Below are positions 18,402 to 63,330 of a stretch of 64,000 nt of DNA, piece after piece. Position 1 is the stretch's first letter, and each line of letters starts with the position of its first letter. A program made the translations under genes and the position numbers. Source of the stretch: Paludisphaera soli. Lineage in GTDB: Bacteria > Planctomycetota > Planctomycetia > Isosphaerales > Isosphaeraceae. The stretch is taken from assembly GCF_011064595.1 (NCBI RefSeq), contig NZ_JAALJI010000002.1:539028-603027 (forward strand), given 5' to 3'. Under the pieces are notes generated by a model that was given only the letters and a program-made list of their open reading frames with translations, did no database searches and was not told the origin of the DNA.

Positions 18402-18417
18402 TGAATCACGTAATTCA
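18402..18417. repeat. Dispersed palindrome, copy 1
   Basis: TGAATCACGTAATTCA, one mismatch from the consensus TGAATSNYGNGATTCA found nine times in this window, always outside genes. It lies in an otherwise GC-rich stretch about 0.6 kb upstream of the excisionase-like gene. Confidence 0.75.
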
Positions 18418-19756
18418 CGAGTTGAGAGTCGTGCAACGAGGCTGGGAAGAGGTAGGGCTGGTAGGTGGACCAATCGCGATACGTCTTGGTCATGCCACCC
18501 TCGGACCGGGCTGGTACCTATCGGGGGACGGGCCTCGGCATTCTTCGAAAGTCATCGGCCAAAGGCGATACTCGGACCGTCTCCTAGGCGACGGCCGACC
18601 CGTCCCGGTTCCGCCACACGAATTCCGAGCGTCCCGACTATGGGCAGGCGTGGGACTGGAGGTCCAACCGTCCGTCATCGTGTCGCCCCGTTAAGTCGCA
18701 GCGGGATGTCGCGTTTCCGCGTCCGCATGGCCCGCTCCCCTGGGAGCGAGGGTGCGCCTCCGTTCGGCTGCTCACGTCCGGGGACGGGGCCGCCGCGGCG
18801 ATGGGGCCGTCTCGGCGAAGGGTGGCGTCCCGGAGGAGGATGCGTCCGCAGCCGTGCCCGGCGACGACGTCATTCGCTCCCATCGGAAGGCAGGCGAGCT
18901 GGCCGAGGCCCAGAATGCCAGGGGCGGACGACGCTCCCCTTCCGGTCGAGGGAGGACCGGTTCGGCGAGGAGCAGCATCGATTCCAGCGTAGCCGACCCG
19001 GTCCGGCCGATCGCTCTTCGGCTTCACACGCCAGCCGTGCGACTCCGCAGGACGCGAGAGGAGGTGTCGCATGAGCTGGACCTGAGCGGGGCCGTGGTCG
19101 GTTCGGCCCGCGACGCCTGCACTCGACCTCGCAAACGTGCCCGAACTTCGGATCCGGACGATCCGAGAGGGGGGCCCGCCCCGAAGATCGGGGAGGTCGG
19201 TGGAGAGTCGGAGGAATTTATCCCGCCCGAGCGGCCCCTCGGGCCGCCCCCCCTCCTCGTCTCCGCTTAATCCGCGGTGGAATCGCGTCATCGGGAAACG
19301 GGGCCGTTAGACCCTCCACTTGCTTCGCGACGGCATCCGCGGCCCGAACGCCGCGTGGTGGGGGCAAATCGCCGACCATGGACTCGGCAGGAAAGGGAGC
19401 TCCGGGCCGAGGTCCCTCCTTCCCCCGTCGGAATGGCCGAGGGGCCGGGCGTCCCCGGCCGGGGCTCGCGGCTCGGGCGGGCCGGCCCCTCTTCGCGGCG
19501 TTCCCCGCCGCCTGGGGCCGCGTGCGTCCGGGGGCCGCTCGGCGTGGCGGTCGGCCCCTCCCCGCCTTCGCGAAGGCCGCCCGGCGTTGCCCCGCGACGC
19601 GACGTCCGCACGCCCGAGCCGCTCTGGCGAGGGCTCGCCGGCCGGCATCTCGGCCCCGGCGAGTGCTCGCCTGTCACCGACAGACCCGCACGAGCCCGGA
19701 CGCTCGCCGGGCCGCCGGCCCGGGACCGGACCGGGCCGACTTCCAGGAGCCGCCCC

Positions 19757-20494
19757 ATGTCGAATCGCCTCGAAATCCTGGCGTCCGCCCCCGGCCCCGC
19801 CGCCGCCCGCCCCCCGCTGCTCTGCCGGGGGAATGCGAAACTGGGGCGGGAGCTGATCTGGAGCTTCTCGATCCCCGCGGTCGCCTCCTGCCCCGGGTCC
19901 ACCCCGGCCTGCCGGGCGGCCTGCTACGCCCGCTCGGGCCGCTTCGCGTTCCCGTCCGTGAAGGGCCGCCACGCCCGGAACCTGGCCCGGGCCGAGCGCC
20001 CCGGCTTCGTCGCCGACCTGGTCGATCAGGTCCGCCGCGACTTCGTCCGCGTGGTCCGCGTGCACGGCTCGGGCGACTTCCACTCGGCGGGCTACGTCGG
20101 CCGCTGGGCCGAGGCCGCGCGGATCTGCCGCTCGACCGTCTTCTACGCCTACACGCGGTCCTGGAGGGTCCCGGAGATCCGCGGGGCGTTGGCGGACTTC
20201 GCCGGCCTGCCCAACGTGCGGCTGTGGTACTCCGGCGACCGCGACTCCGGCCCCCCGCCCCGCGACCCGGGCGTCCGGACGGCCTGGATGATCGGGCCGG
20301 GCGAGCCGACCGGCTCGGTCCCGGCGACGGCCGACCTGGCCTTCCGCGTCCGCCGGTCGGGGCCGCTCAAGCGGGCCAACGGAGTGCTCGTCTGCCCGTA
20401 CGAGCAGGCGGTCCCGAGGTCCTGCCCGCCGATCACCTGCGAACGCTGCCGCATCTGCTTCGACAGGCCGCCGCGCCCGCCGGCCCGGCCCTGA
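19757..20494 (+). CDS. GP88-like (phage gene product 88 domain) protein
   Basis: 245-residue protein resembling the 'gene product 88' domain of actinobacteriophages, found sporadically in bacterial elements. Seen: GNAKLGRELIWSFSIPA (about 26-42), the cysteine cluster CPGSTPACRAACYARSGRF (about 45-63), a histidine/aspartate motif RVHGSGDFHSAGYV (about 95-108), and a C-terminal cysteine set (CPYEQAVPRSCPPITCERC...C). The many ordered cysteines suggest a metal-binding or iron-sulfur protein; no activity is established. ATG 19757 has AGGAG upstream. It stands alone between gene-poor stretches, consistent with phage-derived or mobile-element cargo. Confidence 0.7.
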   Translation: MSNRLEILASAPGPAAARPPLLCRGNAKLGRELIWSFSIPAVASCPGSTPACRAACYARSGRFAFPSVKGRHARNLARAERPGFVADLVDQVRRDFVRVVRVHGSGDFHSAGYVGRWAEAARICRSTVFYAYTRSWRVPEIRGALADFAGLPNVRLWYSGDRDSGPPPRDPGVRTAWMIGPGEPTGSVPATADLAFRVRRSGPLKRANGVLVCPYEQAVPRSCPPITCERCRICFDRPPRPPARP

Positions 20495-20984
20495 CCCGCC
20501 GAGATCTTCCATAGTCGTCCGGCGGGGTTTCGGCCCGCGGCGGCCGGATCCTTCCCAGCCCCACCGCCCCCCTGGAGTTCGACGGCCTGACGTCGACGAC
20601 GCCGACCGTCGGGCGGCGGCCGGGGGGGACGGCGGGCTCGGGAGCACTGCACGGCGGTCGTTTTTTTAGCTCCCGCGAGATGAAGGGGCGGATCCCTCTC
20701 GACGCGGACGCCGCTTGGGACTTCGCCGGCGAGCTCCGACGCGAGCGGCCCGGGCCGCTCGGAATCGAGCGGCGGCGGGCCGTCCCGGAGAGGGCGCGAC
20801 ATGGACGGTCGCGGCGTCCTACGCCGGCTCGGGCGCCGGACGAGCGGCCCGAGTTTCGTGAATCTCGGGATTCACTCCAGGGCATGTCAGTCATCATTTT
20901 CAGATCATCACATCGAGGCTGGACTCGCTCGAAGAGGGCAGGTCAGCGACGGTCGGCCCCCGTCGCCGGCCAGCACGGGCGCGT
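20495..20984. other. Intergenic stretch with T-tract and palindrome
   Basis: 490 bp between the convergent GP88-like gene and the first sulfatase. It contains a T7 tract at 20661-20667 behind GC-rich sequence, a possible weak terminator for the GP88-like gene, and the dispersed palindrome at 20859-20874. No gene seen. Confidence 0.5.
20859..20874. repeat. Dispersed palindrome, copy 2
   Basis: TGAATCTCGGGATTCA; the dyad extends one base each side as GTGAATC...GATTCAC. It lies 111 bp beyond the stop of the leftward sulfatase gene. Confidence 0.8.
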
Positions 20985-22607: not shown

Positions 22608-22841
22608 AGGGGAGGACTCCGGTAGGCGGCTGCATCCAGGACCGGCGGCGTCATGTAGGACGCCACAACCTATCGCGTTCCGAGCCGAGGCCGGAACCCA
22701 TGTGATTTTGGGCGGGAGGCCCGGACGACCCGGCGACGAACAACCGGGACGGGCGACGGATCTCTCGCGCCCGGGACCCATCGGGGAGATCACCGGGACT
22801 CATCCGTCGCGGGTCGTCCAGCTTCCGTGTGGGATCGATCC

Positions 22842-23993
22842 TCAATAGGCGTCGGAGCTGATCACTTCGCCGCCGGCCCTGGTCCCGAGCGCCCAGTAGG
22901 TCCGAAGGTCGATGGTGCTCTTGATGAAGCGGACGCTGCCGTCGGCGAAGGTGTAGTTGGATCCCCCCGAATGGTTGCTGGTCGAGTTGACGAACCCCGA
23001 GAGCCCCCACGTAAACAGGGGGTCCGCCTGGCACGAGTTGAAGGCGTATTGCGGATTGTTGGGCGGCGCGATCGTGTTGAAGAGCGTCGTGCCCAGGTAG
23101 CCGGCTTGCCACGTGGCCCCGCTGAAACTGGACCCCACGGACCTATCGGTCGTGCCCACATTAGCCCGGGCGTACGCGCCGCAGGCCGCGAGGGCCTGGA
23201 CGACTTGCGGGTAAAGCGGGCTGGCGTCGAGAGAGACCACGCCGGCGACCTCGGACACTCTCCCGAAGCTGGCGCGACGCGGGTCGGCGACCGCCGGCCC
23301 AATTCCACCCACCAGGCGCTCGGAGTAAGCGATGGTGTTGGACAGGCCATCGGTCACGCTCGCCACGTTGTAGGCGGGGACGCCATGCACGATCGGGTTG
23401 TCAAAGCCGAAGATGCCCGTCGTCCGTTGGCTCACCACGGTCTGTTGCACGGCCCCGATCGCCTCGACGGTCGTCCCCGTGCTGCCTACGTAGTTGCAGT
23501 TGAAATTCATCCTCTGTGCCTCCAGGACCGTGGGGGAGAGGCCGTCGGAGGGGCAGAGGAACAATTTCAAGGGCGTGAAGAGGATCGTGGAATTGGTGTA
23601 GTAGGCCTGGTTCAGCGCCTGGGCCGGGGCGAAACTGAAGTTGATCGCGTTGTAGACCGGCGCCTGCTCCAGGTGGTGGAGTACTTGTGCGTGGATGCTC
23701 CACGGGTTGCCCCCGTAGTTGGGGCCGGGCGTGGTCTTGGCCCAAGACTGGCCGATGGGGAACGAGCCGATCGAGGAGTGGTAGTTGTGCAGTGCGAGCC
23801 CGAACTGCTTGAGGTTGTTGACGCAGTGGATCCGTCGGGCGGCCTCGCGGGCCGACTGGACGGCGGGCAGCAGCAGGGCGATGAGCACGGCGATGATGGC
23901 GATGACCACCAGCAGCTCGATCAGGGTGAAGGCGTGGAGGCGCGACCGAGCGTCGACCTTTCGCAACTGGTCGTCGCGATGCAATATCGGCAT
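22842..23993 (-). CDS. DUF1559 prepilin-like protein, copy 1
   Basis: 383-residue protein with a type IV prepilin-like N-terminus ([34 protein letters not shown]), a single membrane helix for pseudopilin-type processing, and the planctomycete-specific DUF1559 C-terminal domain ([10 protein letters not shown] and [14 protein letters not shown]). The family is hugely expanded in Planctomycetota; its role in the envelope or secretion is unknown. I prefer the ATG at 23991-23993 because GGAGA sits 5-7 bp upstream; an in-frame ATG four codons earlier lies in a hairpin. It is near-identical over most of its length to the copy at 29991-31142, and both are upstream of a sulfatase gene. Confidence 0.9.
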
Positions 23994-23997
23994 GTAA

Positions 23998-24011
23998 GTC
24001 TCCATAGAGAC
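23998..24011 (-). promoter_or_regulatory. Hairpin over the ribosome-binding site, DUF1559 copy 1
   Basis: On the sense strand GTCTC-TATG-GAGAC forms a 5-bp stem that contains the GGAG ribosome-binding site of the preferred start and an alternative ATG in its loop. The same hairpin is present before copy 2 (31147-31160), suggesting a conserved translational control element. Confidence 0.45.
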
Positions 24012-24373
24012 CGGACGCCTCCGGCTGGCGCGGTCGGCGATATCCGGGGGTTCGACTCAACACACCTCTCGTCGACGAGTCGGCATCAACCGGGCGGGGA
24101 GGAGGCGGGAGGATCCTCGTCCATGGGGTTGCGATTCTGCTCAGACTCGGAGGAACCTGTCAAGGGGAATGCCTATTATTCCTATAGGGTTTCCACAGCC
24201 CGCTTGCGTCAGCCCAAGAGACGGCTTGAGCTGCCCACAGAGACCGGACAATCGCACGCGAGGATTCGGATGCGATTGCCCCTGCCCCTATGTTGTCGCC
24301 GGGGTCGATTCACCCTTCTTGGGCCTAGAAGCTCTCTCGGCCGGTCCGACTCCCCAGGGTGCCCCTGATTAGT
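24006..24373 (-). other. Leader and promoter region of DUF1559 copy 1
   Basis: 368 bp between the sulfite oxidase-like gene and DUF1559 copy 1, holding the 5' leader, which is conserved with copy 2 for about 90 bp from the start codon, the promoter at 24134-24163, and AT-richer sequence upstream. No gene seen. Confidence 0.55.
24134..24163 (-). promoter_or_regulatory. Promoter of DUF1559 copy 1
   Basis: Reading leftward, TTGACA (24163-24158), an 18-bp spacer and CAGAAT (24139-24134) form a sigma-70-like promoter. The same boxes with the same spacing stand before copy 2. Transcription from here would give a leader of roughly 130 nt. Confidence 0.6.
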
Positions 24374-31142: not shown

Positions 31143-31146
31143 GGAA

Positions 31147-31160
31147 GTCTCCATAGAGAC
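31147..31160 (-). promoter_or_regulatory. Hairpin over the ribosome-binding site, DUF1559 copy 2
   Basis: Same GTCTC-TATG-GAGAC element as at 23998-24011, enclosing the GGAG site before the preferred start. Confidence 0.45.
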
Positions 31161-31274
31161 CGGACGCCTCCGGCTGGCGCGGTCGGCGATGCCCGGCTAA
31201 TGACTCAACATGCCTCTCGGCGACGAGTCGGCTCCATGTGGGAGAGGGGGTAGGCCCTTCGTTGTGCGGCCGCC

Positions 31275-32344: not shown

Positions 32345-33543
32345 GGAGTTCCCCCAGTGTCGTCCGCAAGGAGGTTGATCCGGCTCCCGACGGAGGAGTG
32401 CACGGTCGGGAGTCGGGCCGGGCCCCGGCGTCGGGGGTGGCCGGCTCGATCGACGATCGGACGTCGGACTTGGAGTGCACGATGGGTGACGGGTCCGCGC
32501 CCATGGTCCTTTGTCGGGGAAGGACCTACGGGCGGCGGCCGTCCCCGCCCGAGACGGTCACGACCAAGGCCTCCTCGGGAGTCGGGGATACGGGCGGGAC
32601 GTCCTCGCCGCGGGTAAGCCATGCGGCCGCTCGGAACGTCGGCCGGATTCCCCCGCCCCGCCGTCCGCGACCGGCTCGGTCGGCTGCGACGGTTCCGGCC
32701 GAGGCGGCCGCTCGACCTCCCGGGGCCTCGACCGCGCGGTCGACGGTGGGAAGGACGTCCGATGATTCGGCGAGGTCGTCCCGGCGGTCCGCGGTATCAT
32801 CGAACTTAGATTCGGCGTCCCCCCGCGGCCCCGCCGGGCCATCGGCCCGGTGGGGCTTTCCCATCCGCCCTGCGACAGTCGCGAGGAAGTCGGCACCGCA
32901 CCTCATCCAGCGGAGCCTCCACCCCACTCGCAGGGCGTCGTCCCATCAGCCTCGAGGGCGACGTTTCGGGCCGACCCGTAGCGATCCCCGGCCCATCGGA
33001 GCCCTCCCTCCCGCATCAGGAGGACGGCGATCGGTCCATTCCGTCCAGGGCGTACGCCGGTCGGACGCCTCGAGGTGCGGCCTGCGTGGGGGCTGGGCGG
33101 CGAGAGGATCGGCCGGCCGCGGCGGGTCGGGCGGATCCAGTGGACGGGGGCGAGTCCAGATCTGCGGGCCGGGGGGCGTCGGTGAGGCCCTCTCGGAGCC
33201 CCGCCTCGCCGCGCGGCGGGACGACCGGGGCCGAGTCGCCCCGCCCGGGCGGCACCGGCGGGCGAGGCTCTCGAGTCCTCGACGGGGCGAGGCGACCCGT
33301 CTCGGGAGTTCGCCTCGGCCCTCGAGGATCCTCGGGCAGGGCCTGACGGTTCGCTGGACCGCAGCGTGACAGGGCGGAGACCGCCCCGCCGGTGGTCCAT
33401 GGCGACCGCCTCGCGCGAGAGCGAGCGAGGGGGGATCCCGCGAAAGGTCCCCGAGGACCCGCGAGGCGCCCGATGACGAAGGGCTCGCAGGGACGTGGTC
33501 GGAGCGTGCCCCGCCCGAGCCCGGCCGGATCACGCGAGGGCTC

Positions 33544-34596: not shown

Positions 34597-34612
34597 TGAT
34601 TCATGTGATTCA
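34597..34612. repeat. Dispersed palindrome, copy 3
   Basis: TGATTCATGTGATTCA, one mismatch from consensus. The following 120 bp align with the sequence after copy 7: GTGCGACGGCCGG lies 66 bp from the palindrome start here and 65 bp there, and GATCCCGGACGCCGG lies 120 and 118 bp away. Confidence 0.75.
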
Positions 34613-35130: not shown

Positions 35131-35955
35131 GTGTACATCGTCTGGCGTAATCGGCCCGTGCGAAGCGACGCCCGGGCCGCGTTTCTCAAGGAGCCCGAAT
35201 GGATGCACGGCATGGATTTGGAGGAGCCCTGGAGGCCGCTGTCCTGCGAGCATCGCGGCCCGGATCGGATCGCCCTCACGCCGCTGGTCGTGCATTCGAA
35301 GCGGACGGACGGCGGGCCGCGGCAAGAAGTCCTCGCGCGGCTGCCGACGATCCGATCCTGCTGCCTCGCCGACCGCTTCGCGCGGGCCGCCTGGTGGTAC
35401 GAAGTGGACCGGACCTTCGGCTCCTGGCGCGAGGGCGGCTACGGCCGGCCGCGGGACGACGTACGGCGGTTCGAGGGCGAGCTGCGAAAGGCGCTCCTGG
35501 CGGGCGTCCCGGCGGCGACCAGGGCCGGCGTCCGCGACTTCGCGGCGTATCGGCTGCTCAAGGAGCGGGAGCACGAGGGACGCGAGCGTGCGGCGGAAGC
35601 GGCCTGGGCCGCCGCGGAGGCGGCCCGGCTCGCGGAAGAGATACGGGGAGAAGAAGAACGATTCCGGGCCGAGCAGGAGCGGCTCGACGCCGAGTTTTGG
35701 CGGCTCCGCGCCGAGTATGAGCGGCTCCGGGCCGACGAGGAACGGGCCCGGGGCGGGCGGACGGCGGGCGCGACCGTCTCGCCCGAGTGCCTCGACGTCC
35801 TGGGCCTCCCCCGCGACGCCTCCCCGGAGGAGGTGAAGCGGCGGCACCGGGAACCGGCCAAGGAACATCATCCGGACCGCGGCGGCGACCCGGAGGAGTT
35901 CCGGCGTTTCCGGGAGGCCTACGAGGCCGCGATGAAACCGCGGGGCCGCCCGTGA
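35131..35955 (+). CDS. Protein with C-terminal J domain and coiled coil
   Basis: 274-residue protein. The N-terminal 100 residues (VYIVWRNRPVRS..., EVLARLPTIRSCCLADRFARAAWWYEVD) form an unrecognised domain. A charged coiled coil rich in Glu, Arg and Ala covers about 150-210 (EEIRGEEERFRAEQERLD). A truncated J domain ends the protein, with the HPD motif at 247-249 (EHHPDRGGDPEEFRRFREAYEAA), so it may recruit an Hsp70. I use GTG 35131 because conserved-looking sequence begins at VYIVW; the frame is open upstream, so the start is uncertain. It is flanked by gene-poor DNA. Client unknown. Confidence 0.7.
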   Translation: MYIVWRNRPVRSDARAAFLKEPEWMHGMDLEEPWRPLSCEHRGPDRIALTPLVVHSKRTDGGPRQEVLARLPTIRSCCLADRFARAAWWYEVDRTFGSWREGGYGRPRDDVRRFEGELRKALLAGVPAATRAGVRDFAAYRLLKEREHEGRERAAEAAWAAAEAARLAEEIRGEEERFRAEQERLDAEFWRLRAEYERLRADEERARGGRTAGATVSPECLDVLGLPRDASPEEVKRRHREPAKEHHPDRGGDPEEFRRFREAYEAAMKPRGRP

Positions 35956-37367
35956 AGGACCTCCACGCCCGCCCCCTCGACGTCGGCGCGAGCCGCCTCT
36001 CGTCGCACACGCCGCACCGCCGACTCCGGCGTCGCCGAGGGGACCCTCGGGCGGTCGCCGTCGCAGCGAGGGCATGAGACCCGTCGGGACCGCCCAGGAG
36101 TCGGGGCGTCGCCTTCGTCACGCCGTCGAGCTGACGCGGCGGGGGGAGTCGCCCACCGTCGTCGCCAGCATCCCGGGCGGCGGCGCCGGCCGTTGGCCCC
36201 GGAAGCCTCCTTGTCGGTGCGCGTGGGCGGCCCGACTGGGGGCGAATCAACCTCCATCGGCATGGGGCAAGCCGATGACCCGCGCCGCGCCGCCGGCACC
36301 GCCCCACAAGCCGGGGGGCGACGGGCGAGGCGCGTCGCACGGCGCTCGCATCCCGATCGCCCCGGCAACCTCTCTCGTCCGCCGCTCCGCTTCGGTCGGA
36401 GTGCGGGCTCCCGGAGTGCGAGGCCGCGTCCCCGGCCGACGAGGCCCACGTCTCGCCCGAGGGGGCGTCGGTATTGAATCCCGCGATTCATCCGCGGGCG
36501 AGTTCCTCGCTCGCCGGCGTGCCGGGACCGGCCGTACTCACGAAGTCCCGCGGACGAAAGTCATGCTCGGGCGGTCCGCCCCAGGGGCGAGGCCGCGACC
36601 GCCTCGGGCGTCCACGGCCGGCGGGCGGCCGCGGCGCCACCTCGCGCTTCGATCCACCCGAGGGAGGCGAGAACAGAGACGGCAGCTCCGCTCGGCGGCC
36701 GAGGCCGCGAGCCTCTCGCAGGCCCCCCTCGCACGGCTCCAGGTCGGACGCGGGTCCTGCGTCTCGCGCTTCGGGCCCGATGCGTGAGTTGCCGGCGGGG
36801 ACCCGCCCTCCCCCCTCGGGCCGCCGGCGTCCGAGCCGGCACGGGACGTCGGCGGGATCCCACGAGCCGTCGATGAGCCGAACGGCCTTCGGTCGCCTCG
36901 TCTCGCGAAGTCGCGCCGCTCGCGGAGCCGCCGCGGATGAGGGGCGGCCCATCCTTCGGACGCTGGGAGGCGACTTTCGCGGTCGGCAGGCTGGGCGGGC
37001 CGAGTCGCGAGGCCGCCCGTCTATAGGGGCCGGGCGCCGGCCCGCGCGATGCACGGCAGGTTCCGGGCCGACGAGCCGGCCCGCCTCGTGTCGAGGGATC
37101 GCGAGGCGGGGCGGCCTGACCGCGATATCGGGAAATCGGGCTAACCGCCGATGCGAGACCGGCCGTACCCTGCTCCGGCCTCGCCCCCCCCGTTCTAGGT
37201 CTGTGGAGGATCGAGCCGGGCGGGGGGCTCCCGATGTAGTACGGGCGGCGCGGACGGAGGCCGCGATCGGGAAAGTGAGCCGGCCCCGTCCGCCGCGGCG
37301 GACGCCGAGGCGGGAGCGCCGTCGGCGCACGATCTCAAGCCACGAACCCAAGCCGGAGGACCACGCC
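35956..37367. other. Gene-poor stretch
   Basis: 1.4 kb without a supportable gene. It contains palindrome copy 4 at 36475-36490 and, at 37141, the motif CTAACCGCCGAT shared with the region before the gene at 54421. Long overlapping open frames are compositional artefacts. Confidence 0.5.
36475..36490. repeat. Dispersed palindrome, copy 4
   Basis: TGAATCCCGCGATTCA in gene-poor DNA between the J-domain protein and the gene at 37368. Confidence 0.8.
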
Positions 37368-47956: not shown

Positions 47957-48467
47957 GCCGTCGGCCTCCCCTACGACGGAGCCGTCCCAAGCCCGCTTCA
48001 TCGACCGCCTGACGGCCGCCGCCGGCGCCTCGCTCGATGCCCTGGGGCGCCTTCGTCGTCGAGACCGATCGAGACAGCCGGCGGGGTGGCGTCGGCCGCC
48101 GTCGCGCCCGCCCGGACGTCGTGGCCCCGACTCCCGGCTCCGCCGTCGACCGCGACTACGCCCGCCCCGACGGCCGGGACCGTGAATCATGGGATTCATC
48201 ACGAGGCGGCGATCGGCCGACCGACCCGCCGCCCGCGAAGCGGCGAGCCGGGGGACGGGCCAACCTCGCCCCGCGAGACTCGTCCGGTCGTCGCGGGGGC
48301 CGCGCCCGACGACGGGAGGGTGCCGCCGCGCACGAGCGCAGTTTGCAGGAGGAGGCGAGCCCCGCGGCCGCCCTCCCGCGCGACGAGCCTGAGAGGGTCG
48401 CCCGGATCGACCGCCTCGCCGCCGAGCGCGACCGCGGCCCGCGTCCGGCGAGTCCCTCGGCGGGCCC
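47957..48467. other. Convergent intergenic stretch with palindrome
   Basis: 511 bp between the acetyltransferase and the leftward replication gene pair, containing palindrome copy 5 at 48183-48198. No gene seen. Confidence 0.5.
48183..48198. repeat. Dispersed palindrome, copy 5
   Basis: TGAATCATGGGATTCA, identical to copy 8, 270 bp beyond the stop of the AAA ATPase gene. Confidence 0.8.
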
Positions 48468-49904
48468 CTACGTCGGCTCCTCCGGGAGGCCGCCGGCCCC
48501 AGCCTCGCATGCGGGATCGGCCGGGCCGGACGGCGGCTCGTCCCCGCCGAGGTCGCGGAGCGAATAGACGGACAGAGCCCTGGTCCGGCCGGGCTCCCTG
48601 CGCTTCTCGACCTCGACGACGACCCCCAGGTCGACGAGGCTCGGGGCCGGGGCGTTGACCCGGGCGATCGCCCGGTCGATCTTGCGGCGGTCGGTCCAAC
48701 GGCCGTCCGGGCCCACCCGCCCGATCAGGCCGGCCGCGCCGGCGGCGTCCGCCAGCTCGACCCAGCCGACGGGCCGGCGCGCCCGCCGGAGGCGGTCGAC
48801 GATCCAGCGGGCGCAGGCGTCGGCCTCGTGGGCGGGCCTGGCCTCGCGGCCGACTGGGGAGAACACGACCCCGGCTTCGGCGTGCTCGACGTCGAGGGCC
48901 GGCCGGGCCTTGAAGTTCGACTCCTCGACGGCGAGCCGCAGCCTGGACCGGTCCTCCTCGCCGCGACGCTTCAGGCTCCAAAGGACGCGGGCCCGCTCGG
49001 TGATGCGGCGGCCGAGGGCGCCCCCCTGTCGGTTCTCGTGGATCAGGACCAGGAGCGCGACGGACCGCCTCGCCGCCAAATCCATGATCGGGTCCAGCAT
49101 CCGCTTCATGTCCTCGGGCTTGCCGAGGCTCAGGTGCGCGCCGTACGTCAGCGTGTCCACCACGATCAGCCGGTGGGCGGGGTCCTGCTCGATCAGGTAG
49201 TCCAGCAGGTCGATCAGGCGGGGGTCGTCGAGGTCGGGCACGCGAAGCCCCGCCTCGTCGTCGGGGTCGGTGGGGATCGTCACGGCGTCCTGCACCCCGA
49301 GCTTCATCAGCTCCTCGTCGAGCTCGGCGACGTTCTTGTCGTACGGGAGGACGAGCGTCCTGCCGCCCCGGTACGGGTTCGGGGCCCCGTCCCCCCAGGC
49401 GTCGCGCCCGTACAGGTCCCGGGCGATGGTCATGCAGATCCGAGTCTTCCCCACCTTGGGCCCCGATCGCAGCATGCTCATCTCGCCGAGGTACAGCCAT
49501 CCCTCCCAGAGGGGCCGGAGCCCGCCCAAGCTCTCGGAGATCTCGCGGGGCTTCCGGCCGCGGTACCCCGAGTCTCGCAGCCGGGCCGCCCGCTCGGCCT
49601 TCGCCCTCGCCTCCCGGGGGGCCCTGGACGCCTTCGGCCGGGCCGCCTCGGCCTCCAGCTTCGCGGCGAGCGCGTCCGCCTCGGGGGTCGACGGCCGGGC
49701 GGCGGGGATCCCCGTCGTCGGGCCATCCGCCCGGGGGGCTCCTTCGTCCGCGGCGACGGCCGGCTCCGAGACGCCGCGACCCGCTCGCGAAGTAGCCGCG
49801 TCGGCTTCGTCCGTCGCGGGGCCGGACCGATCGTCGACGACGCTCGGCGCCCCGGGCGCAGGGCCCCACGGCCCGTCCGGCCCCGATCCGTTGCAGTTGT
49901 CCAT
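48468..49904 (-). CDS. RepA/DnaB-like AAA ATPase of a replication module
   Basis: 478-residue ATPase. A disordered N-terminus (1-105) leads to a RecA-fold domain with Walker A SGPKVGKT (147-154, Lys153), Walker B LIVVD (246-250) and a sensor-like LLVLIHENRQGG near 290. A winged-helix-like C-terminus (about 375-450; WIVDRLRRARRPVGWVELADAAG) follows. This layout matches RepA-like helicases (AAA_25) of phages and integrative elements. The start is the ATG at 49902-49904. It follows a primase gene by 101 bp in the same direction; together they form a plausible replication unit. Confidence 0.78.
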   Translation of the reverse strand: MDNCNGSGPDGPWGPAPGAPSVVDDRSGPATDEADAATSRAGRGVSEPAVAADEGAPRADGPTTGIPAARPSTPEADALAAKLEAEAARPKASRAPREARAKAERAARLRDSGYRGRKPREISESLGGLRPLWEGWLYLGEMSMLRSGPKVGKTRICMTIARDLYGRDAWGDGAPNPYRGGRTLVLPYDKNVAELDEELMKLGVQDAVTIPTDPDDEAGLRVPDLDDPRLIDLLDYLIEQDPAHRLIVVDTLTYGAHLSLGKPEDMKRMLDPIMDLAARRSVALLVLIHENRQGGALGRRITERARVLWSLKRRGEEDRSRLRLAVEESNFKARPALDVEHAEAGVVFSPVGREARPAHEADACARWIVDRLRRARRPVGWVELADAAGAAGLIGRVGPDGRWTDRRKIDRAIARVNAPAPSLVDLGVVVEVEKRREPGRTRALSVYSLRDLGGDEPPSGPADPACEAGAGGLPEEPT

Positions 49905-50005: not shown

Positions 50006-51196
50006 TCACAAGCCCGTCCGAGGCCTCCCCTTGCGAGAGGCGAAGGCGCGCCACAGCCGGTCCCGCTTCCGGCGGACGTCGCCGACCCGGATCCGGGCGT
50101 CCTCGAGCTTGTGTTCCAGCTCCTGCGCGGACCACTCGGGGTCGCAGTCGAGGTTGTAGGCCTCCAGAAACTCCATCTGGTCGTCCTCCGGGACGCCGGC
50201 CTCGACGACCGCGCACGCCGCCGCGAAGGTCGCGTCGTGGCCGCCGGCCCCGGAGATCGCCGGGCCGATCCGGGCGAAGTCCTCGAGGACGCGCCCGCGG
50301 CGGTACTCGATCCATTCGGCGTCGTCCTCGTCGACCTCCTCCGCCGCCTCGAAGTCGACGCCGCGGCCGCCGGCGTCATGTCCGTACGCCGCCCCGCCCT
50401 CCCGGGCGGCCACCCCCACCGCCCTCTCGCCGGCGGACCGGGTCTGGGCCGCCGAGAAGCCGAGGAGGCGGACGAGGGCGGCGTCCGGCAGCCAGGCGAC
50501 GGGGGACGCATCTACCCACGTCCTGGCGAACCCCCCGGTGGCCGTCGGCGGGACGCAGAACTGGACCCCCTTGGGCCGCCCCAGGCGGGCGTTCCAGCCG
50601 CCGATCCGGACCTCGAGGCCGGGGAAGGCGGGGTGGTTCTTGACGGGCCGCAGCAGGCGGGCGTGCAGTTCGGGGACCCAGGCCAGCCAGTGCGGGCCGC
50701 GGGAGGAGAGCCAGCAGGCCGTCCGCAACGGCCCCAGCAGGCCCTCGGCCGATTCCCGGCCCCCCGGGCCGTCGACCTCGACCTCAATCAGCCAGCGGTC
50801 CCGGTACGGCCCCAGGCGGCCGGCCAGGCCTAGCTCCGGGAAGACTCGCAGGACGTCGCGCAGCTCGGCGGGGTCCCGCCCGGCGGAGGCCCAGCCGGCC
50901 TGGGCGGGGAGCTTGGATTCGGGCCGAGTCGCGTGCAGCTCGATCCCCTGGCCCGCCAGGTAGTCGATCGACCAGGCGTGGGCGGCCGCCCGCCGGGAGC
51001 GGTGGCCGGGGCCCCTCTCCGGCTCGCGAGGGGAACCGAGCGACGCCCCGGGAGCGGGCGTGGGGGCGGCCTTCCACGCCGTCGCGTCTGGAAGATCGGA
51101 CGCGTCCTGCATGGGTACAGGCCCGTCGGGGCGGCCCGGCGGCGTCGGCCGCTCGAGCGTCTCTCGATGCCGAGGCGGGGGCGTGGCGGCTTCCAT
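50006..51196 (-). CDS. Primase / bifunctional DNA primase-polymerase-like protein
   Basis: 396-residue protein. The N-terminal part (about 75-260) resembles element-encoded prim-pol/replicase proteins: WSIDYLAGQGIELHATRPESK, LIEVEVDGPGG, PRTACWLSSRGPHWLAWVP-like strands and VQFCVPPTATGG. The C-terminal 60 residues carry a primase-C-terminal helical motif: HDATFAAACAVVEAG, EDDQMEFLEAYNLDCDPEWSAQELEHKLEDARIRVG. I do not see an unambiguous catalytic DxD/H set, so primase activity is inferred from the C-terminal domain and from its pairing with the helicase-like gene. The ATG at 51194-51196 has GAGAG upstream. Confidence 0.65.
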   Translation of the reverse strand: MEAATPPPRHRETLERPTPPGRPDGPVPMQDASDLPDATAWKAAPTPAPGASLGSPREPERGPGHRSRRAAAHAWSIDYLAGQGIELHATRPESKLPAQAGWASAGRDPAELRDVLRVFPELGLAGRLGPYRDRWLIEVEVDGPGGRESAEGLLGPLRTACWLSSRGPHWLAWVPELHARLLRPVKNHPAFPGLEVRIGGWNARLGRPKGVQFCVPPTATGGFARTWVDASPVAWLPDAALVRLLGFSAAQTRSAGERAVGVAAREGGAAYGHDAGGRGVDFEAAEEVDEDDAEWIEYRRGRVLEDFARIGPAISGAGGHDATFAAACAVVEAGVPEDDQMEFLEAYNLDCDPEWSAQELEHKLEDARIRVGDVRRKRDRLWRAFASRKGRPRTGL

Positions 51197-52474
51197 GGTG
51201 GTGCTCTCGGTCTTTCGGGGAGGGGGCGAACCGTTCGTCACCCCTCCACCCGTCCGCATCACGCTAGCCGGGACTTCCCGCCGCACGTACGCCGACTTCT
51301 CCGAGACCCGTCCGAAGGAAGGATCTCGCCTCTCGACCGTTGATGCGGGGGTCGGTGGACGGCCCGATCGTCCAAGTCGCTTCGGGGCCGGGATTTACGT
51401 CGGGCCATGCTCCTTGCCGCCTGAAGATGGCGGAGTGTCGCAGGTCATTCCCTGGAAACGACTTGCATTGGGCTACGGCCTCCCGAGCGGGGCGTGAGGG
51501 CCGGGGCCCAACCTCGGTCGATCCGATTCATGGTCGCGGAACGTTCGACGCGACCGTGGGCGCGCGACGAGCCGAATGGGGCCGGGCGTCCACGTCGCTC
51601 GTAGCCCGACCCAAGTTCCTTGTTGTTAGAGGATTACGTAGACTGGGCCATGAGGGACGCGCCCTATAGGAGGGCTTCCCCGACGAAGCGGGAGCGTGGC
51701 TTCCGACCGTGCTCGCCCCCCCCGATCCACCTCTCGCGCCCGCAGACGGTGGAAGCGTCGCGTGGACGTCGCGGCGCCCGCGTCCGGCTGATCTCCAGAG
51801 GGTGCAGCCCAACCAGCGGGACGACGAGGGTCGCATGAGTTCCCGGCGTAGAATCGCGGCGGTCGGGACGCCGATTCTCCGACTCGCGCCCGTCACGCTC
51901 GTCGGACGCTCCCGGGCCGCGTAGGAAGGGTCCCGATGGGCGAGGCCCGTCCCCGACGAGTCGACGCCGCCTTGACCGGGCCGGTCCGCCTCGGAGCGCG
52001 CCACGAGATGCGGGTCGCAAGGCCGGGCGGTCGCTCCGGGAGGCGAGGGGGATCGGGCCTCCACCGGCGGCTTCGCGGGCGTTTCCGACCGAGGCGGGTC
52101 CCGATCTGAATGACGTGATTCAAGTTTTCCCTCCCGGGCGGGGCGGCATGGGCCGAGATGGACGCGCCGAACCGGCGACACGGACGGCGGACTTGGTCCT
52201 CGTCCCCTGCACCGCCTCGACGCGAGGCATCCCTCCCGGTCGACCATCACCGCGATCCTCCCGCCGGTTCGGCGCTCGCGACGAGGCGAGGGTCGTCCGG
52301 CCTTCTCTGCATCCCCCGCCAGGCCGCCGAAGAGGGCCGTCGCCGATCGGCAATCCGACCAAGGGCGTCTCCAATACCGATCGACGACCCGCGATGACGG
52401 CCCCACCGAGGCTCCAACGGAGGGTGCCCGTCGGCCGGACGATCCTCGCAAGCCGTCGAGCGGGATCGGGGGGC
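51197..52474. other. Gene-poor stretch upstream of the primase
   Basis: 1.3 kb without a supportable gene, containing palindrome copy 6 at 52107-52122 and presumably the promoter of the primase-helicase pair in its first few hundred bases. No iteron array seen here. Confidence 0.5.
52107..52122. repeat. Dispersed palindrome, copy 6
   Basis: TGAATGACGTGATTCA in gene-poor DNA between the primase and glycosyltransferase genes. Confidence 0.75.
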
Positions 52475-53746: not shown

Positions 53747-54420
53747 GCGTTCGCTCCCGACCGCCAAGCGGCCTCGACGGCCTGGGCCGGCTCCCACGAC
53801 CTGGGGCGATTATCGCTCGCCGGCCGGTTCTCGTCCACCGGAGGCGCATCGGCGGCCGCCGCGCCGCGACCTCGCCCCAGGGGACCTCCATGGGCACGCC
53901 CCCATCACCCCGTCCGTCCGCCGGCCGGCCTCCATCGCCGGGCGGTTGAGGAGGCGGCGGATCGGGCGGCTCCGGCGCCGTGTCCGACGACGGCCGTCAC
54001 GGCGGCGCGGAGCCGGAGGAGGGCTCGAGGCGACCGCCCGACGTCACCGACCTGGCCAGGAGGCCCGCGAGCAGCCGACGCGCCATGATCGTCGACGCCC
54101 GACGGACGAAGCGGTCGGCGGCGTCCTCGGTCACCGGGTGAATCACGTGATTCAATTCGAGCCGCGAGCCGGCCCCACCACTCGCCCGTCGCCGGGGTGG
54201 CGGGTGCGACGGCCGGATGGCTCCAGGATCCGCCGGGATCGCCCGCCGTCCCTCTAGATCCCGGACGCCGGCCGGTTCGGTCGGTCGCCGCTCGCCTCGG
54301 GCCCGCGAGGGACGGTGAGGAAGGTGATCGGTTCGATATCCGCCTAACCGCCGATCCGCGCCCGCGAGTACCCTCGGCCGCCGTGGTCCCAGCCTTCAAG
54401 CACCGTTTGAGAGCATTCCA
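53747..54420. other. Intergenic stretch with palindrome block
   Basis: 674 bp holding a 22-bp sequence at 54093-54114 repeated exactly at 34205-34226, palindrome copy 7 at 54139-54154 with its conserved 3' block to about 54271, and CTAACCGCCGAT at 54344. No gene seen. Confidence 0.55.
54139..54154. repeat. Dispersed palindrome, copy 7 (perfect)
   Basis: TGAATCACGTGATTCA is a perfect 16-bp palindrome. Its 3' flank matches that of copy 3 at constant spacing, so the two belong to a longer repeat unit of about 135 bp. Confidence 0.85.
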
Positions 54421-55533
54421 ATGGGCGTGAACGAATATGACGAATCGAACCAGAAGGGCGACGTCCCGGCCGCGGGCCTCGCATGCCGGACGAGTCCCGT
54501 CCAGAGCAGGGTCTCCGAGATCGAGACGCCGGGCGGACCGGAGCCGCTCAGGCGTGACGGGTCGCCGGGAGGGGTGCGGCCCGCCGGGCGGTTCGGGACC
54601 GGCGTCCCCCACCTCGACGCGCTGCTCGGCGAAGGCCAGGCGGGCGGCGAGGTCCACCTGATGGTCGGCCCGCACTACGCCGGCGGCTCCCATCACGCCG
54701 TCCAGGTCGCGATCGGCGGTGCCGGGCGCCTCCACGCCGCCCACCTCGCCGGCGGACCGATGAAGGCGGCCTATCTCGCCTCGTACCAGATCCCCCACGA
54801 GGAGCTCGGGCACCGCGTCTTCTCTTGCGGCGCGGCCGTCTCGTGGACCCGGCTGCTCCAGGGGATCGCCCCGGGGGCCGAAAGGCCGTGCTCCACCCGG
54901 GGGGCGCTACTCCCCTACGGAGAGGAAATGTATCGGCGTCGGGGCGAAAGCCGCCTCGACGACCTGCCGGGCGAGGAGGAGCGGATCCGGGAGTTCACGG
55001 CCGGCCCCGGCCGCGCCCTGCAGGCCCTCGAGATGACCGGGAGGGGCGACGGCCGCTGGCACCGCTGCGGCGGCGTGGGCGAGCTCGCCTCGCACTTCTA
55101 GTTGGCGGACCAGGGATCGCCCCCGGGCCTCCCGGTCGTCGACTGCGTCGACGAGGCCCTCCGGAGGAGCCTGGCGCGCGAGGACGGGGGCCCGGCCCCG
55201 AGCCCCGCATGCGGGACGCCGTCCGGTCGTTCCTCGTCGAGGCGGCCGACAAGATCGCCGCCCCGTTCGGCATCCCCGCCTGGCTGATCGTCAGGCGCGG
55301 CCCCCTGGGGCCTTCGGTCGTCGCCGGTCGGGCGGCTCCATCGGGCCCTCGTCGCCGAGGCGAAGCGTTTCGGCCCGTACGCCCACGGGGTCTTCCACCT
55401 GGGCGTGCCGGACCGCGCGTCTCGGCCCCTCCGCGTCACCTGCGGGCTCTCCCGCCGCGGGGAGGCGGCCGGGGACCGCGTCCTGGAGCTCGAGCACGAA
55501 TTCTCCCGCTTCCGCGACGTCGCGGCCCTGTAG
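54421..55533 (+). pseudogene. Decayed RecA/KaiC-like ATPase gene
   Basis: The first 226 codons (54421-55101) encode a RecA-superfamily start: FGTGVPHLDALLGEG followed by a P-loop position reading GPHYAGGS (83-90), in which the Walker Lys is Gly. A TAG at 55099 interrupts a frame that plausibly continues (LPVVDCVDEALRRSLARED). From about 55209 a second frame carries VRSFLVEAADKIAAPFGIPAWLIV, and from about 55339 a third carries RALVAEAKRFGPYAHGVFHLGVPD and ends at TAG 55531. One stop, two frameshifts and the lost lysine indicate a pseudogene. ATG 54421 retains GAGAG upstream. The first 226 codons might still be translated. Confidence 0.7.
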
Positions 55534-56355
55534 GAGAGCGGCCGGCGGGCTCACGCCGCTCATCGCGGCCGGGCGGCGCCGTTCGTCTAATCTCACCGCG
55601 CATAGGCCCACGGACGGCCGGCTGGGCCGCCCGCACCCTTCGCCGATGAACCGTCGCGCCGCGACCGGAGGAGCGATCGTCTCCACGCCGCTCGCGTTCC
55701 GGCCCGAAGGCGGGCCGGCGGTCCGCTGCCGATCGACGGAGCAGCGACGAGAGTGCGCGATCCCTACCAATAGGTGCGCATGCGCACAGGAAACCATCGC
55801 GACCCTTCCCCGCGTGAATGCTCGAGGGGCGATCGCCCCCGGTCCCGCCGCCCGCCTCTCGGGGCCGATCACGGCGGGGCAGGCGGGTTCTCCCGAGCCG
55901 TGGGGGAGGAGCTGGGTCGCCGAGGTCGCGCGGCCCGCCGCCCCGGGCACGACTCGATCCCGCCTTGAATCCCACCTGACCGGAGCCGGCCCGTCCATCC
56001 ACGACCTTGGAACGGCCAACGCCGAACGGTCGCCCGCCGGGCGGTCGCGGCGGGTCGGCTAGGTCCGGCCGCGACCTCGAGTCTCGAGCACGGCCGGCGA
56101 GCGAACCGTCGTCCTCGCCTGGGCGGGGAAGTCGCCCCTGCGGAGGTCGGCCGCGGTCATATGCAACGCCGGGCGGACGGGAAAGGCCGATGAGTTCGCC
56201 CCTTGCCGTGCGAAGACCGGACGGGTCGTACGGACGTATGTAGACGATGCGACCCCCCGACGCCGGCGAAGGCGAGGAGTTTCGACCCCTCGAGGACGAA
56301 GCCAACCCGCCCGCAGGTTGGATGTAGTGCGCGCGGCCCAGGAGCGGTCGCGAGT

Positions 56356-56371
56356 GAATCATGGGATTCAC
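56356..56371. repeat. Dispersed palindrome, copy 8
   Basis: TGAATCATGGGATTCA; the dyad extends to GTGAATC...GATTCAC. Identical core to copy 5. Confidence 0.8.
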
Positions 56372-56619
56372 CGTTAGAGGGCGAGTAGACTTCCGACGGA
56401 GGACACTTCGGATCGCCTCAGGGGTGGAGCCGCGTGGCGGAAGACGACGACCCAACGACGCCTGAGGCGCTTTCGACGTCCGTTCGCTCGCTACAAGGAG
56501 ATCTGGGGAGCGGCCGGCGCCCGATCGCCTCGGGGCGGGCCGCGACGAGCGAGGCCGGCCCACCGCCGGGAAGCCGGTTCGACGGCTCACTCCTCCCTCC
56601 AGCTCGCCGGGCCCGCCCT

Positions 56620-58367: not shown

Positions 58368-58491
58368 GATCGAACGCCGCCCGGAGGTCGAGCGGGATCC
58401 TGCGCCGCTCGCTGGTGGTGCTTCATGAGAGCCTGAGTTCGAGCGCTGCCGGTTCGTGCCGCCTGGGACGGCGGGTAGGAATAGGCCCACG

Positions 58492-60364: not shown

Positions 60365-61087
60365 ATGTACGGATGGTTTATGCCCCGCCGCGACGAGACC
60401 CCTGAAGGAACCCCGCCTCGCCCGACCCCGAAGAACCGGCGGCGGGGACGGAGCGCGAAGCGCCCGCGGAGGCGCGGCGAGGCCCGCGAACCGGAACGGT
60501 CCTGGCTGCGGCCCTGGGAGGTCGACGCGCTCCTCGCCGCCCTGATCGCCCGACCCAGGGCCGCGAGGGCGGCGGCCCGCGAACTGGATCCGGCATACTT
60601 CTCCCGCGAGCCGTTCCATCGGGTCGTCTGGGAGTGCCTGCTCCAGTCCTTCTCGCACTACGAGCCTGGGGAGGTCCCCTACGACGTCCTCCGCGCCGCC
60701 GTCGCCTCCCGCCTCGCCGCCTGGCCCGTCGCGATCGACCCGACGGACCGGGCCGCGCTGCTCGCCGAGCCCGGGGACGTCGGCCGGCCGATCGTCGCGG
60801 GCCGGCCGAATCCCGTCGTGCGGTCGCCGGGCCTGCTCTTCCGCGCGTATGAAGAGGCGAAGCGGCTCGACCCTTCCCCGAGGGAAGGCCTTGAGGAGCT
60901 GAAACTGTTCCTGCTCGAGCGAGGCGTGAGGGACGAGCTGGCGAGGCTCGTCGCCCGGGGAGGCGCCGACTCCATCCCCGGCGACTTCTTCCCCGCCTTC
61001 CGGGCCATCCTCGATCGGAAGGATCGGCTCGCGTGGCTGGACCTGCCGCCGAGGTATCGTTTCGACAGGTTTCCGGACGATCGGTAG
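60365..61087 (+). CDS. DnaB N-terminal-domain-like protein
   Basis: 240-residue protein. A basic N-terminus (KNRRRGRSAKRPRRRGE) is followed by a helical domain resembling the N-terminal domain of replicative helicases: EVDALLAALIARPRAARAAARELDPAYFSREPFHRVVWECLLQ (about 52-95), then LLFRAYEEAKRL and LKLFLLERGVRDELARLVA. No ATPase domain is attached. ATG 60365 has AGGAG at ideal distance; an in-frame ATG at 60380 is less favoured. It could pair in trans with a RecA-like ATPase such as the decayed one at 54421 or the helicase at 48468. The DnaB-N call is tentative. Confidence 0.55.
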   Translation: MYGWFMPRRDETPEGTPPRPTPKNRRRGRSAKRPRRRGEAREPERSWLRPWEVDALLAALIARPRAARAAARELDPAYFSREPFHRVVWECLLQSFSHYEPGEVPYDVLRAAVASRLAAWPVAIDPTDRAALLAEPGDVGRPIVAGRPNPVVRSPGLLFRAYEEAKRLDPSPREGLEELKLFLLERGVRDELARLVARGGADSIPGDFFPAFRAILDRKDRLAWLDLPPRYRFDRFPDDR

Positions 61088-63330
61088 CCGCCGACGTTCG
61101 GCGAGGACGACTGCGATCGACCGATGGGCGATGCAGAGCCGATTATCGGTCATCAAGAGACTCCAGGTCCCACCGTCGGGAGCGCTGATTCCGAAGATCG
61201 TCCCGACCCCGGAACGGGGCTGAGGCGGCGGCGAGCACCAAGGTGGGGGGACGCGCCGCGTCCCGCAGGCGCACTCGCGCGTTTCGCGAAGGGCGTCGAG
61301 ACGAGCCGGGGCGACACGGCGACGCCTCCCATTTGCAGGGGCCCGCAGGCTCATCCGGCATCGTCTCGACCGCCGACCGGCACATCGGCCCGGGAGCCTG
61401 ATGGCGGCCGACGGCTGCGGGCGGACGCCATGTCCGTCGTCGTCGCTCGTCCCTCCCGCGTCATGCACGGGCCCCCGAGTAGGCGTGGTTCGTCCGCCTG
61501 CGGTGCGACCGGCCGAAGGCTGCGGGGCCACAAGCCCGACACGTGCGTCCGGTGCGGGCCGCAGGGCGGCGGGACGCGCCAGTCCGACGAATCACGGCGA
61601 CGACCGAAAGATCGGAGCTCCCGCCCCGAGCGGCCTCCTCCGCGAGATCCCGCGCGAAACTTGCGAACGACGCTGAGGGCCCCGAGCTCGACGTCCCGAT
61701 CTTCCGCCGGTGCGTGAGGGGTCGACTTCCGGCTCGCGGTGGGAGATCGGACCTGCCGACGCGCCGGGAGACGCGAGGATCCTCATCGGCGACTCGCGCC
61801 TCGATCCGGAAGGTCGTCGCCCGGCGGCGGGTGCGCCCGTCAGGCAAGACCGACCTTCGTTTTCTCGACGCCGACGCTCGCGGTTCGTCCCGGCCCCTGG
61901 CTGCCGGTCGGCGGGAGTTCCGACAGGGCCGCCAGGTCGTTCTCGATTCGGTCGTAGCCTCGAACGGCTGTGAACCCTCCGGGATCGGCGGGGGTCGATC
62001 CTCTACGACGGGCTTGGTTCCGGCCTTCGCGACATGATCGGAAGTTGCATGCCGGATCTTGCAAGAGAGCCGGGCGAGACGTCGCGTGCAGGGACGACCT
62101 CATCATGGCCATCGGTCAGGGGGGAAGTCGGCGGCGCCCAGGGGCCGAGGTTCTACGGAACACGGCCCTCCGACGAAGGTGGTCGCGGGCTCGCAGAACG
62201 CCCTCCCGCCAGCCGAGTCGCGCTTCGTCGTCCACCTCCTTCTCGGCCGCCGACCTTGTGCTCGCAGGATCCGGCTCCAGATCGTGAAGAACGTCGGCAC
62301 CGGGAAATGAAGCCCTCCGACCCGGCCGTCCGCACCATCGGGGCGGGCGGACGCTCCTCCCCCGGGTCGCGAAAGATGAATGACGGGATTCAAATGTGGA
62401 CGAGGCGCGGTTCGATCCCTGCACCGAGCGAAAGCGGCCCGCCCTGCTGGACGGTCGTCGGTTCGAGCTCTCGAACCTAGCCGTCCCCCTGCCGGCGAGG
62501 GTCGGCCCCCTGGCGGCCGACCACCTTCGAGGGACGAGCCCTGTTCGTCTTCGCGGTCGAACTCCCGTGTTCGCTCTTCGACGAGCGCGCGCCAACCGCC
62601 GGTGGGCACAGTTCGCGTCCATGGACCTCGCGGAGGGAGCGAGGGAGCTTTGAAGGCGGCCGCCCTCTCGTCGGCACGACAATGACGGCCTCCTCGTGTG
62701 CGACGGGTGCGAGGCCCCGGATGGAGCCCCGACGCCGTCGACGGAGGACCAGCTCGAGATCACGAACGAAGTTCTCGACTATGGGCCGGGCGGCCTCAAA
62801 CGCCTACACCGCCTCGAAGCAGAGGGCCGAGGACGGAGGCCTCCAGGCGCGACTACAGGGCCTGGTCACGCATCGCTCGCCCCTGCGACGCCGACTCCGC
62901 AATTAGGACTAGCGGGTCGAGTACGTCGCCGATGCTGCGATCCGCGGACAACTGGAGGAGCGGGCCGACCACGATTCCCGCGAAGGCCGTGTCGAAGGCC
63001 CAGGACCACCGGAGGGATGCGGGTCGAGGACTCACCCCCCGCGGGAGGCCGCGATCGTCGCCGCGAAGGACGGCGACGTCGGCGGGATGGATCGCACGGG
63101 CGAACGCTTCGCCGCCGCCGAGGGGGGCCGCGTTCGGCTATGCGGGCGCGACTTCGGCCCCGCTTGCTGAGGGCCGTGACGCGTTGGACGACCCGGCCGC
63201 GCCGGCAGGCCTGACGACTGCGAAGGACGCTCGCCTCGAAGTCGACCTACCTGCAAATGCGAGCTTGGGCTTAGCCTCGGCCGGGGTCGTTTTCGTTTCA
63301 GGATTCGTAATCGAGAAGAGGAGAGCCATC
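61088..63330. other. Gene-poor stretch
   Basis: 2.2 kb without a firmly supported gene; palindrome copy 9 is at 62377-62392. A GTG-started frame at 62396-62653 (ARFDPCTERKRPALLDGRRF) and a frame around 62690-62830 (CDGCEAPDGAPTPSTEDQLE) have partly gene-like codon use and may be remnants of a decayed gene; neither has a ribosome-binding site. Confidence 0.45.
62377..62392. repeat. Dispersed palindrome, copy 9
   Basis: TGAATGACGGGATTCA, rightmost copy, directly before a possible decayed reading frame. Confidence 0.75.

Follow-up and report, generated by a model that had tools for sequence, protein, structure and literature searches.

Why should a 16-bp palindrome recur nine times in gene-poor DNA of Paludisphaera soli, and what kind of protein would read it? 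The copies lie in a stretch of 64,000 nucleotides, called here the window (assembly GCF_011064595.1, contig NZ_JAALJI010000002.1, positions 539,028 to 603,027), which is the right-hand last 64 kb of its contig (C110), so that the island carrying the copies is cut by the assembly. The palindrome is a two-fold site under selection, shared by a family of integrated elements, as judged from unrelated loci that share these 16 bp only and from arms that stay fixed between diverged copies of the element, and its sequence makes a protein dimer the likely binder.

The palindromes in the window and in the genome

All nine copies reported by the first-pass annotation were present, the eighth starting at 56355 and not, as had been given, at 56356. 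They are TGAATCACGTAATTCA (18402..18417), TGAATCTCGGGATTCA (20859..20874), TGATTCATGTGATTCA (34597..34612), TGAATCCCGCGATTCA (36475..36490), TGAATCATGGGATTCA (48183..48198, 269 bp beyond the end of an AAA_25 gene), TGAATGACGTGATTCA (52107..52122, about 1 kb upstream of a Prim-Pol-like gene), TGAATCACGTGATTCA (54139..54154, identical to the consensus and a perfect 16-bp palindrome), TGAATCATGGGATTCA again (56355..56370) and TGAATGACGGGATTCA (62377..62392), no strand being assigned to any of them. Seven match TGAATSNYGNGATTCA exactly on the plus strand, and the copies at 18402 and 34597 have one deviation each, as had been described; the looser pattern TGAATN6ATTCA fits eight copies, and the ninth (34597) with one letter changed. 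None lies inside a gene called by a home-made codon-usage caller, all are to the right of the tRNA-Leu/integrase junction, and only weak matches with three mismatches were found in the dense first 15 kb. The surroundings had rightly been called gene-poor, the first 14.9 kb being about 91% coding by the same caller, and the frequency was indeed unexpected: 25 strand matches at up to three mismatches were counted in the window against 6.45 expected (standard deviation 2.99), a number reached by none of 100 dinucleotide shuffles. A search of the window from 14.9 kb onwards and of seven island loci with Rfam returned two tRNAs and nothing else.

In the source genome (G000; 7.97 Mb in 197 contigs, designated C, with window positions designated W), TGAATN6ATTCA was found at 22 places against none for the reversed control, with a pyrimidine-purine centre in 21 of them, the exception being on C111. 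The fuller pattern TGAATSNYRNSATTCA has 19 exact places and seven more at one mismatch (control, 0). Sixteen of the exact places are in related island DNA, seven in the window, three on C148, five in the first 46 kb of C165 and one on C135, which together amount to 114,852 bp or 1.4% of the genome; the last three contigs were chosen for the sites on them, which makes this density a biased one, and their kinship with the window was shown afterwards by DNA similarity. The three remaining exact places are on C124, C145 and C170, one on each, the site at C170:1203 being without clear context. Four of the one-mismatch places are also in island DNA (18402, 34597, C148:3558 and C148:6954); the other three, two overlapping housekeeping genes (C1:497008 and C113:61452) and one between genes of this kind (C111:73277), look like chance and were excluded from the 23-site set of this genome. 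When the refuting test set by the first-pass annotation was run, neither a count at or below expectation nor an even spread over core DNA was seen, and the idea was not refuted.

Called genes contain none of the 20 island sites, with a coding fraction of 0.585 (P about 2e-8, with the same outcome at stricter thresholds of the home-made caller). Eight of the 20 lie between divergent genes, seven between convergent genes and five between genes in tandem, a mixture indicating that the sites are not confined to promoters. Under the count and G+C filters applied, no recurrent dyad other than the palindrome was found in C148, C165 and the window island. The 16-mer TGAATCACGTGATTCA had no occurrence in the literature searched, other forms of the site not having been searched for.

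Selection on the site and its forms in relatives

The half-site of the source genome is TGAATC(A/C)C, and the letters over the 23 sites are T46 G45 A46 A45 T46 C38/G6/T2 A23/C14/T6/G3 C40/T6. Nothing beyond the 16 bp is common to unrelated loci of this genome, and while flanks diverge by 9-47% the arms stay. Over 10 orthologous pairs, nine mismatches were counted at the twelve arm positions, where the divergence of the flanks would predict 32.8 (P 2e-8), in a test where pairs share sequences and are not fully independent, where the 20859 group has a single flank, and from which W52107 and W18402 were omitted, their homology not spanning the site. The palindrome at 34597 has its ortholog at C165:36179 and is also homologous to W54139 and C148:7526; that at 36475 has an ortholog with one mismatch, C148:6954; and the left side of that at 20859 is orthologous to C135:13662 and C165:37955. 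Across a flank divergence of 44-47%, the copy at 56355 keeps 12/12 arm letters in its ortholog C165:1458 and 11/12 in C148:3558. One orthologous pair has lost the site (C148:2375 versus about 57607 in the window).

Letters 6 and 11 depart from C-G in eight of the 23 sites and a compensating change was found in none, indicating that double-stranded DNA is read and not a hairpin; an RNA hairpin or terminator was therefore rejected. The earlier suggestion of a site for an element-wide regulator or segregation protein stands in so far as this is a selected two-fold site of an element family, a regulator and a segregation protein not being told apart by these data.

Among 397 genomes of the class, TGAATCNYRNGATTCA was present in 66, with more than two places only in the source genome (13) and G084 (27), and it was not found in five genus mates. 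These genus mates carry one to five places each of TGAATN6ATTCA. G005 has five, four of which read TGAATA/TATTCA (C9:7249, C9:23922, C9:37303 and C27:31386), the fifth, C6:72143, being inside a called gene; a search with this A-form yielded two further sites at one mismatch (C9:27 and C9:1688). The six G005 sites, four exact and two near, are all outside called genes, and letter 6 is A in 12/12 of their half-sites, versus the mostly C of the source genome. Both TGAATN6ATTCA places of G028, which belongs to another genus of the family, are also of the A-form (C1:790744, within the tail of a weakly called 99-amino-acid (aa) frame, and C1:831244, overlapping a gene end by 7 bp), with a near site at 834027, and the sole place of G001 is TGAATGACGTCATTCA at C1:858054 (TGAATG/CATTCA). 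In the exact A-form sites of G005 and the two exact sites of G028, letters 6 and 11 are A and T, so that pairing is kept, as in any two-fold protein site. The A-form was held by 10 of 332 fetched loci, some of them overlapping and most fetched for other purposes. Letter 6 thus seems, from these sequences, to be set genome by genome, which is expected if site and binder change together.

Sites were also found at matching places. At a conserved AAA ATPase locus (DUF1257-DUF2997-AAA) a site is present in four genomes (G000, G001, G005 and G028): it follows the same 326-330 aa gene, with products 58-80% identical, at C145:12689 in the source genome, C9:37303 in G005 and C1:790744 in G028, and it stands 47 bp (C145) and 35 bp (G028) ahead of another gene, with a 39-41% match between the products. 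G001 keeps part of this locus, its site being 1.1 kb from a 101-aa gene 70% identical to the C145 counterpart. C124:56433 of the source genome and C27:31386 of G005 each lie about 0.9 kb past related integrase-like open reading frames beside tRNA-Ser (69% DNA identity), with integrase matches that are both below Pfam's cut-off. These matching places indicate that the single sites on C145 and C124 are not stray.

Arrays of clustered regularly interspaced short palindromic repeats (CRISPR) were seen near the AAA-locus site in G001 (C1:854644-857890, 46 repeats, about 0.2 kb away), G005 (C9:33203-36627, 52 repeats, about 0.7 kb) and G028 (C1:782634-783395, about 12 repeats, about 7 kb), with cas1/cas2-like genes ahead of the arrays in G001 and G005 according to our own reading. 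In four genomes of genus g27, family f2 (G050, G054, G069 and G078), TGAATN6ATTCA has 33-39 places each versus 1-2 for the control, and the stricter pattern 0-2 places, perhaps reflecting a chromosomal regulon of another protein. A scan of IMG/VR with TGAATCNCGNGATTCA returned at least 79 stretches of up to about 15 kb with one site each, and no cluster was found among the matches listed.

What might read the palindrome

We favour, tentatively, the reading that the palindromes are scattered sites of a ParB/KorB-type protein, serving partition plus silencing on tRNA-linked elements. A dimer of such a protein would bind the scattered 16-bp two-fold sites, and the same protein would both hold on to the element family and silence it. 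The gene of the binder may lie elsewhere than in the assembled island (on another element, in an assembly gap or on a lost plasmid), its product acting in trans as the ParB of IncC plasmids does for SGI1, and the changes at letter 6 would then track changes in the binder. KorB-type proteins act in both partition and repression, a dual role that would account for sites at promoters as well as elsewhere, and the scattered placement fits KorB-type operators.

Excerpts of PMC10954446 describe the parS sites of the IncC plasmid R55 as 14 inverted repeats that have a core in common, TTTCACATGTGAAA within a 22-bp repeat, and are dispersed over the plasmid, mostly between genes, ParB binding having been shown for three tested sites; the integrating element SGI1 has two parS sites without parAB of its own. 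The palindromes of P. soli are likewise scattered, mostly intergenic and on elements without parAB in their assembled stretches, but they are 16 bp long, and no ParB or helper plasmid was identified for them. Compared with the parS and Noc sites in excerpts of PMC7383237, the palindrome has the same 16-bp format, a CG centre and a loose letter 7, and 12/16 letters of its consensus equal those of parS. The half-site is the parS half-site TGTTTCAC except for letters 3 and 4 (AA in place of TT); its letter 7, which is A or C, is one of the two letters that separate parS from the Noc site TATTTCCC. Unlike parS, the palindromes have AA/TT at letters 3-4 and 13-14 where parS has TT/AA, are not clustered at the origin, are distinct from the likely parS of the host and vary between genomes at letter 6.

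Next to parAB, the likely parS sites of the host have the sequence GTTTCNCRTGRAAC, which shares the format of the palindrome and has a different address. Those on C187, within 14 kb of parAB, are CGTTTCCCATGAAACG, CGTTTCCCGTGAAACC, TGTTTCGCGTGGAACT and GGTTTCGCGTGGAACG (up to five mismatches, 40 kb searched); we infer their role as parS, and one or two could be chance. At C187:58713-68844 these sites are degenerate, and G003, G014 and G017 keep GTTTCACGTGAAAC near parB.

Several observations weigh against the ParB/KorB reading. No match to PF02195 or PF17762 was found in the assembled island stretches, the island being cut by contig ends, and the best island match in a tblastn search with ParA and four ParB-type proteins had an E value of 0.30. 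TGAATC(A/C)C shares six of eight letters with TGTTTCAC and so falls short of the full parS half-site, a degree of likeness that arises by chance at about 0.4% per motif compared, and canonical parS was not found in the source genome at up to two mismatches. The TC-N-CG-N-GA core with a loose letter 7, which the likely parS of the host also shows, is present in the source genome, whereas the sister sites of G005 and G028, with A at letter 6, have TA at letters 5-6, lose the TC core and fall to 5/8 in their likeness to parS. Distances of 1-14 kb separate the sites, which is unlike most clusters of parS. Finally, none of the five genes for proteins with a ParB-type helix-turn-helix (HTH), on C187, C165 (280865), C68, C123 and, broken, on C125, is linked to the sites. 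The loss of the parS-core C in the sister sites, together with two sites close before a gene start, led us to lower the weight of this reading and to raise that of operators.

As for individual candidates, the host ParB (C187) is not favoured, the likely host parS reading GTTTC and the ParB of G005 being 91% identical yet going with another letter 6; nor is the C165 ParB, whose gene is 235 kb from the island stretch on the same contig and which has orthologs in G002 and G004, genomes without a TGAATC cluster. The C68 ParB-HTH protein, with counterparts in G001, G002, G004 and G005 at 74-79%, is still a candidate, though not a favoured one; the C123 protein, with a best match of 51% and a contig without a site, is not favoured either. 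Small ParB-type HTH proteins without a recognised ParB N-domain are encoded at C123:39487-40023, C68:144736-145293 and C125:34609-34872, the C125 gene being broken beside an IS3-type element, and a ParB relative 87% identical is named for Planctomyces sp. SH-PL62, which together with the DUF1559 and sulfatase genes marks the host as a planctomycete. A wider proposal, which we consider rather unlikely, is a network of centromere-like sites, common to one family of planctomycete mobile elements, in which letter 6 (C, A or G) would be reset per genome with a co-evolving ParB/KorB-type binder, defining which elements are held, silenced or excluded together.

Nearly as likely as the ParB/KorB reading is that the sites are operators of an element-carried repressor, placed between gene blocks and keeping the integrated element silent, much like the stoperators of Cluster A mycobacteriophages. 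Sites that are palindromic, intergenic, dispersed and concentrated in integrated elements would suit such a role, as would the short distances of 47 and 35 bp to the gene start at the AAA locus, and a Bro/Ant anti-repressor-like gene (63337-63999) gives a hint of a repressor circuit like those of phages. The palindrome, with its central CG and the loose letter beside it, also fits LacI/GalR-type operators. The scan of island genes revealed no repressor gene that would match, however, and for 7/20 sites the neighbouring genes converge, so that a promoter would not be expected there, although for two of the seven, on C148, the gene call is doubtful. Stoperators, as excerpts of PMC4351075 present them, are dispersed protein-binding sites of a mobile element, and in their dispersal over mobile elements the palindromes resemble them; stoperators are asymmetric and oriented with transcription, whereas the palindromes are neither, and their divergent, convergent and tandem contexts led us to reject this identity. 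The same excerpts report 17-bp repeats, TGTTCGGNNNCCGAACA, in Cluster O mycobacteriophages (34 copies in Corndog, function unknown), which are also lineage-restricted dyads with fixed arms, a loose centre and occasional loss by single changes. They differ in sequence and spacer, about a third are in genes and their phages lack an integrase; a Cluster O-type repeat was rejected on the difference in sequence.

It is very unlikely that the sites are bound by a nucleoid or silencing protein with which the host marks foreign DNA. Most sites are in element-like DNA, including the one on C124 beside tRNA-Ser and an integrase-like open reading frame, and sister sites stand at matching places in relatives, but a genus-wide protein should keep one address, and letter 6 is mostly C in G000, A in G005 and G in G001 (one site).

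Slightly less credible still is a recombination or insertion site at which elements exchange cargo blocks, an idea that goes back to the first-pass annotation. A window block of 11.5-11.8 kb (sulfatases and DUF1559 genes) without counterpart on C135 or C165 begins about 3 bp or less from the palindrome at 20859, but homology runs continuously through the site in five orthologous groups or pairs. Usual recombinase sites are longer than 16 bp. BLAST segment ends fell within 20 bp of sites nine times versus 1.7 at random, a biased test that was not used as support, as the conserved 16-mer anchors segment ends and these are not independent. Indels between palindromes are reported for Cluster O phages (excerpts of PMC4351075).

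The further suggestion, that a miniature transposon (MITE) or repetitive extragenic palindromic (REP)-like repeat has the palindrome as its remaining core, is barely credible for the source genome, where no longer unit is conserved between unrelated copies and the arms are kept at 9-47% flank divergence, and holds for G084, where TGAATCATGGGATTCA or a close variant lies within a repeat of about 150 bp with inverted ends in 21/23 places with flanks printed. The ends of this G084 MITE are TAGCAGCCCGTTGAAAAAC and GTTTCTCAACACGCTGCTA, with the palindrome at its centre; it is separate from the sites of the source genome, in whose window the TGAATCATGGGATTCA of its centre occurs twice (48183 and 56355).

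The island and its element family

The likely attachment site of the island is a tRNA-Leu (taa) gene at 15097..15181 on the plus strand, followed at the left end of the island by a tyrosine integrase gene (15278..16603, plus strand). At C145:15481-16932, a 76-bp tRNA-Leu fragment (89% identical) is followed by another integrase, called as two pieces; the arrangement likely represents a further island, in tandem or adjacent, that uses the same tRNA. The island consists of copies, many of them decayed, of one element family that is tRNA-linked and likely mobile. Segments of about 0.1-3 kb are 66-90% identical among the window, C135, C148 and C165, and many show no codon-position bias and frame-breaking gaps, indicating that they are non-coding or decayed.

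A GP88-family gene (19757..20494, plus strand) has copies on C135 (92% identical) and C165 (89%, with a stop). A decayed AAA_25 helicase remnant in pieces, with one internal stop, is at 32442..32840 (minus strand), and a divergent AAA_25 helicase-like gene is at 48468..49904 (minus strand); AAA_25 helicase genes are also on C148 and C165. A gene with a C-terminal DnaJ domain (35131..35955, plus strand) lies between the third and fourth palindromes. The Prim-Pol-like gene (50006..51112, minus strand) has a Pfam match below the cut-off, and none with a longer reading frame or in PHROGs. A fragment at 54421..55101 (plus strand) resembles the DnaB-like helicase gene of C148 by our own reading and DNA similarity, with no family match, and a fragment of an N-terminal DnaB-like helicase is at 60380..61087 (plus strand; weak match, E 0.0097). 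The Bro-N/Ant-like gene (63337..63999, plus strand) has weak matches and is cut by the contig end. The family also has DUF3987 and DNA ligase genes, and a DUF3987 gene is likewise present at the start of C9 in G005. Profile scans with AAA_25 returned five distant loci in genome contigs and five in viral contigs, a protein search with the C165 AAA_25 returned three matches, one of them from outside the G000 contigs, and one distant plasmid record was found for AAA_25 and two distant phage records for GP88.

In the same island family, C165:9911-22730 is likely a class XIII (UG13) reverse-transcriptase defence locus: it encodes a pair of HEAT-ARM_XIII proteins, of 1075 and 2120 aa, together with an RT_XIII protein, and a 625-aa protein lies between these. 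Two DUF1559 genes of the window (22844-24084 and 29993-31232) form a direct repeat, 83% identical, within the block of sulfatase and molybdopterin oxidoreductase genes for which C135 and C165 have no counterpart at this place. C135:7787-10985, which is about 3-6 kb away from a palindrome, encodes a large serine recombinase (618 aa) and is surrounded by repeated segments of 0.4 kb.

If the sites are of the centromere type, planctomycete elements would share the trick of SGI1, having sites but no partition genes, and the change of letter 6 among relatives would offer a natural series for learning how proteins that bind DNA switch address. Should the sites instead be operators, an unusual element-wide control would act on the element family. 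The palindromes are usable as a marker to trace this element family through fragmented genomes.

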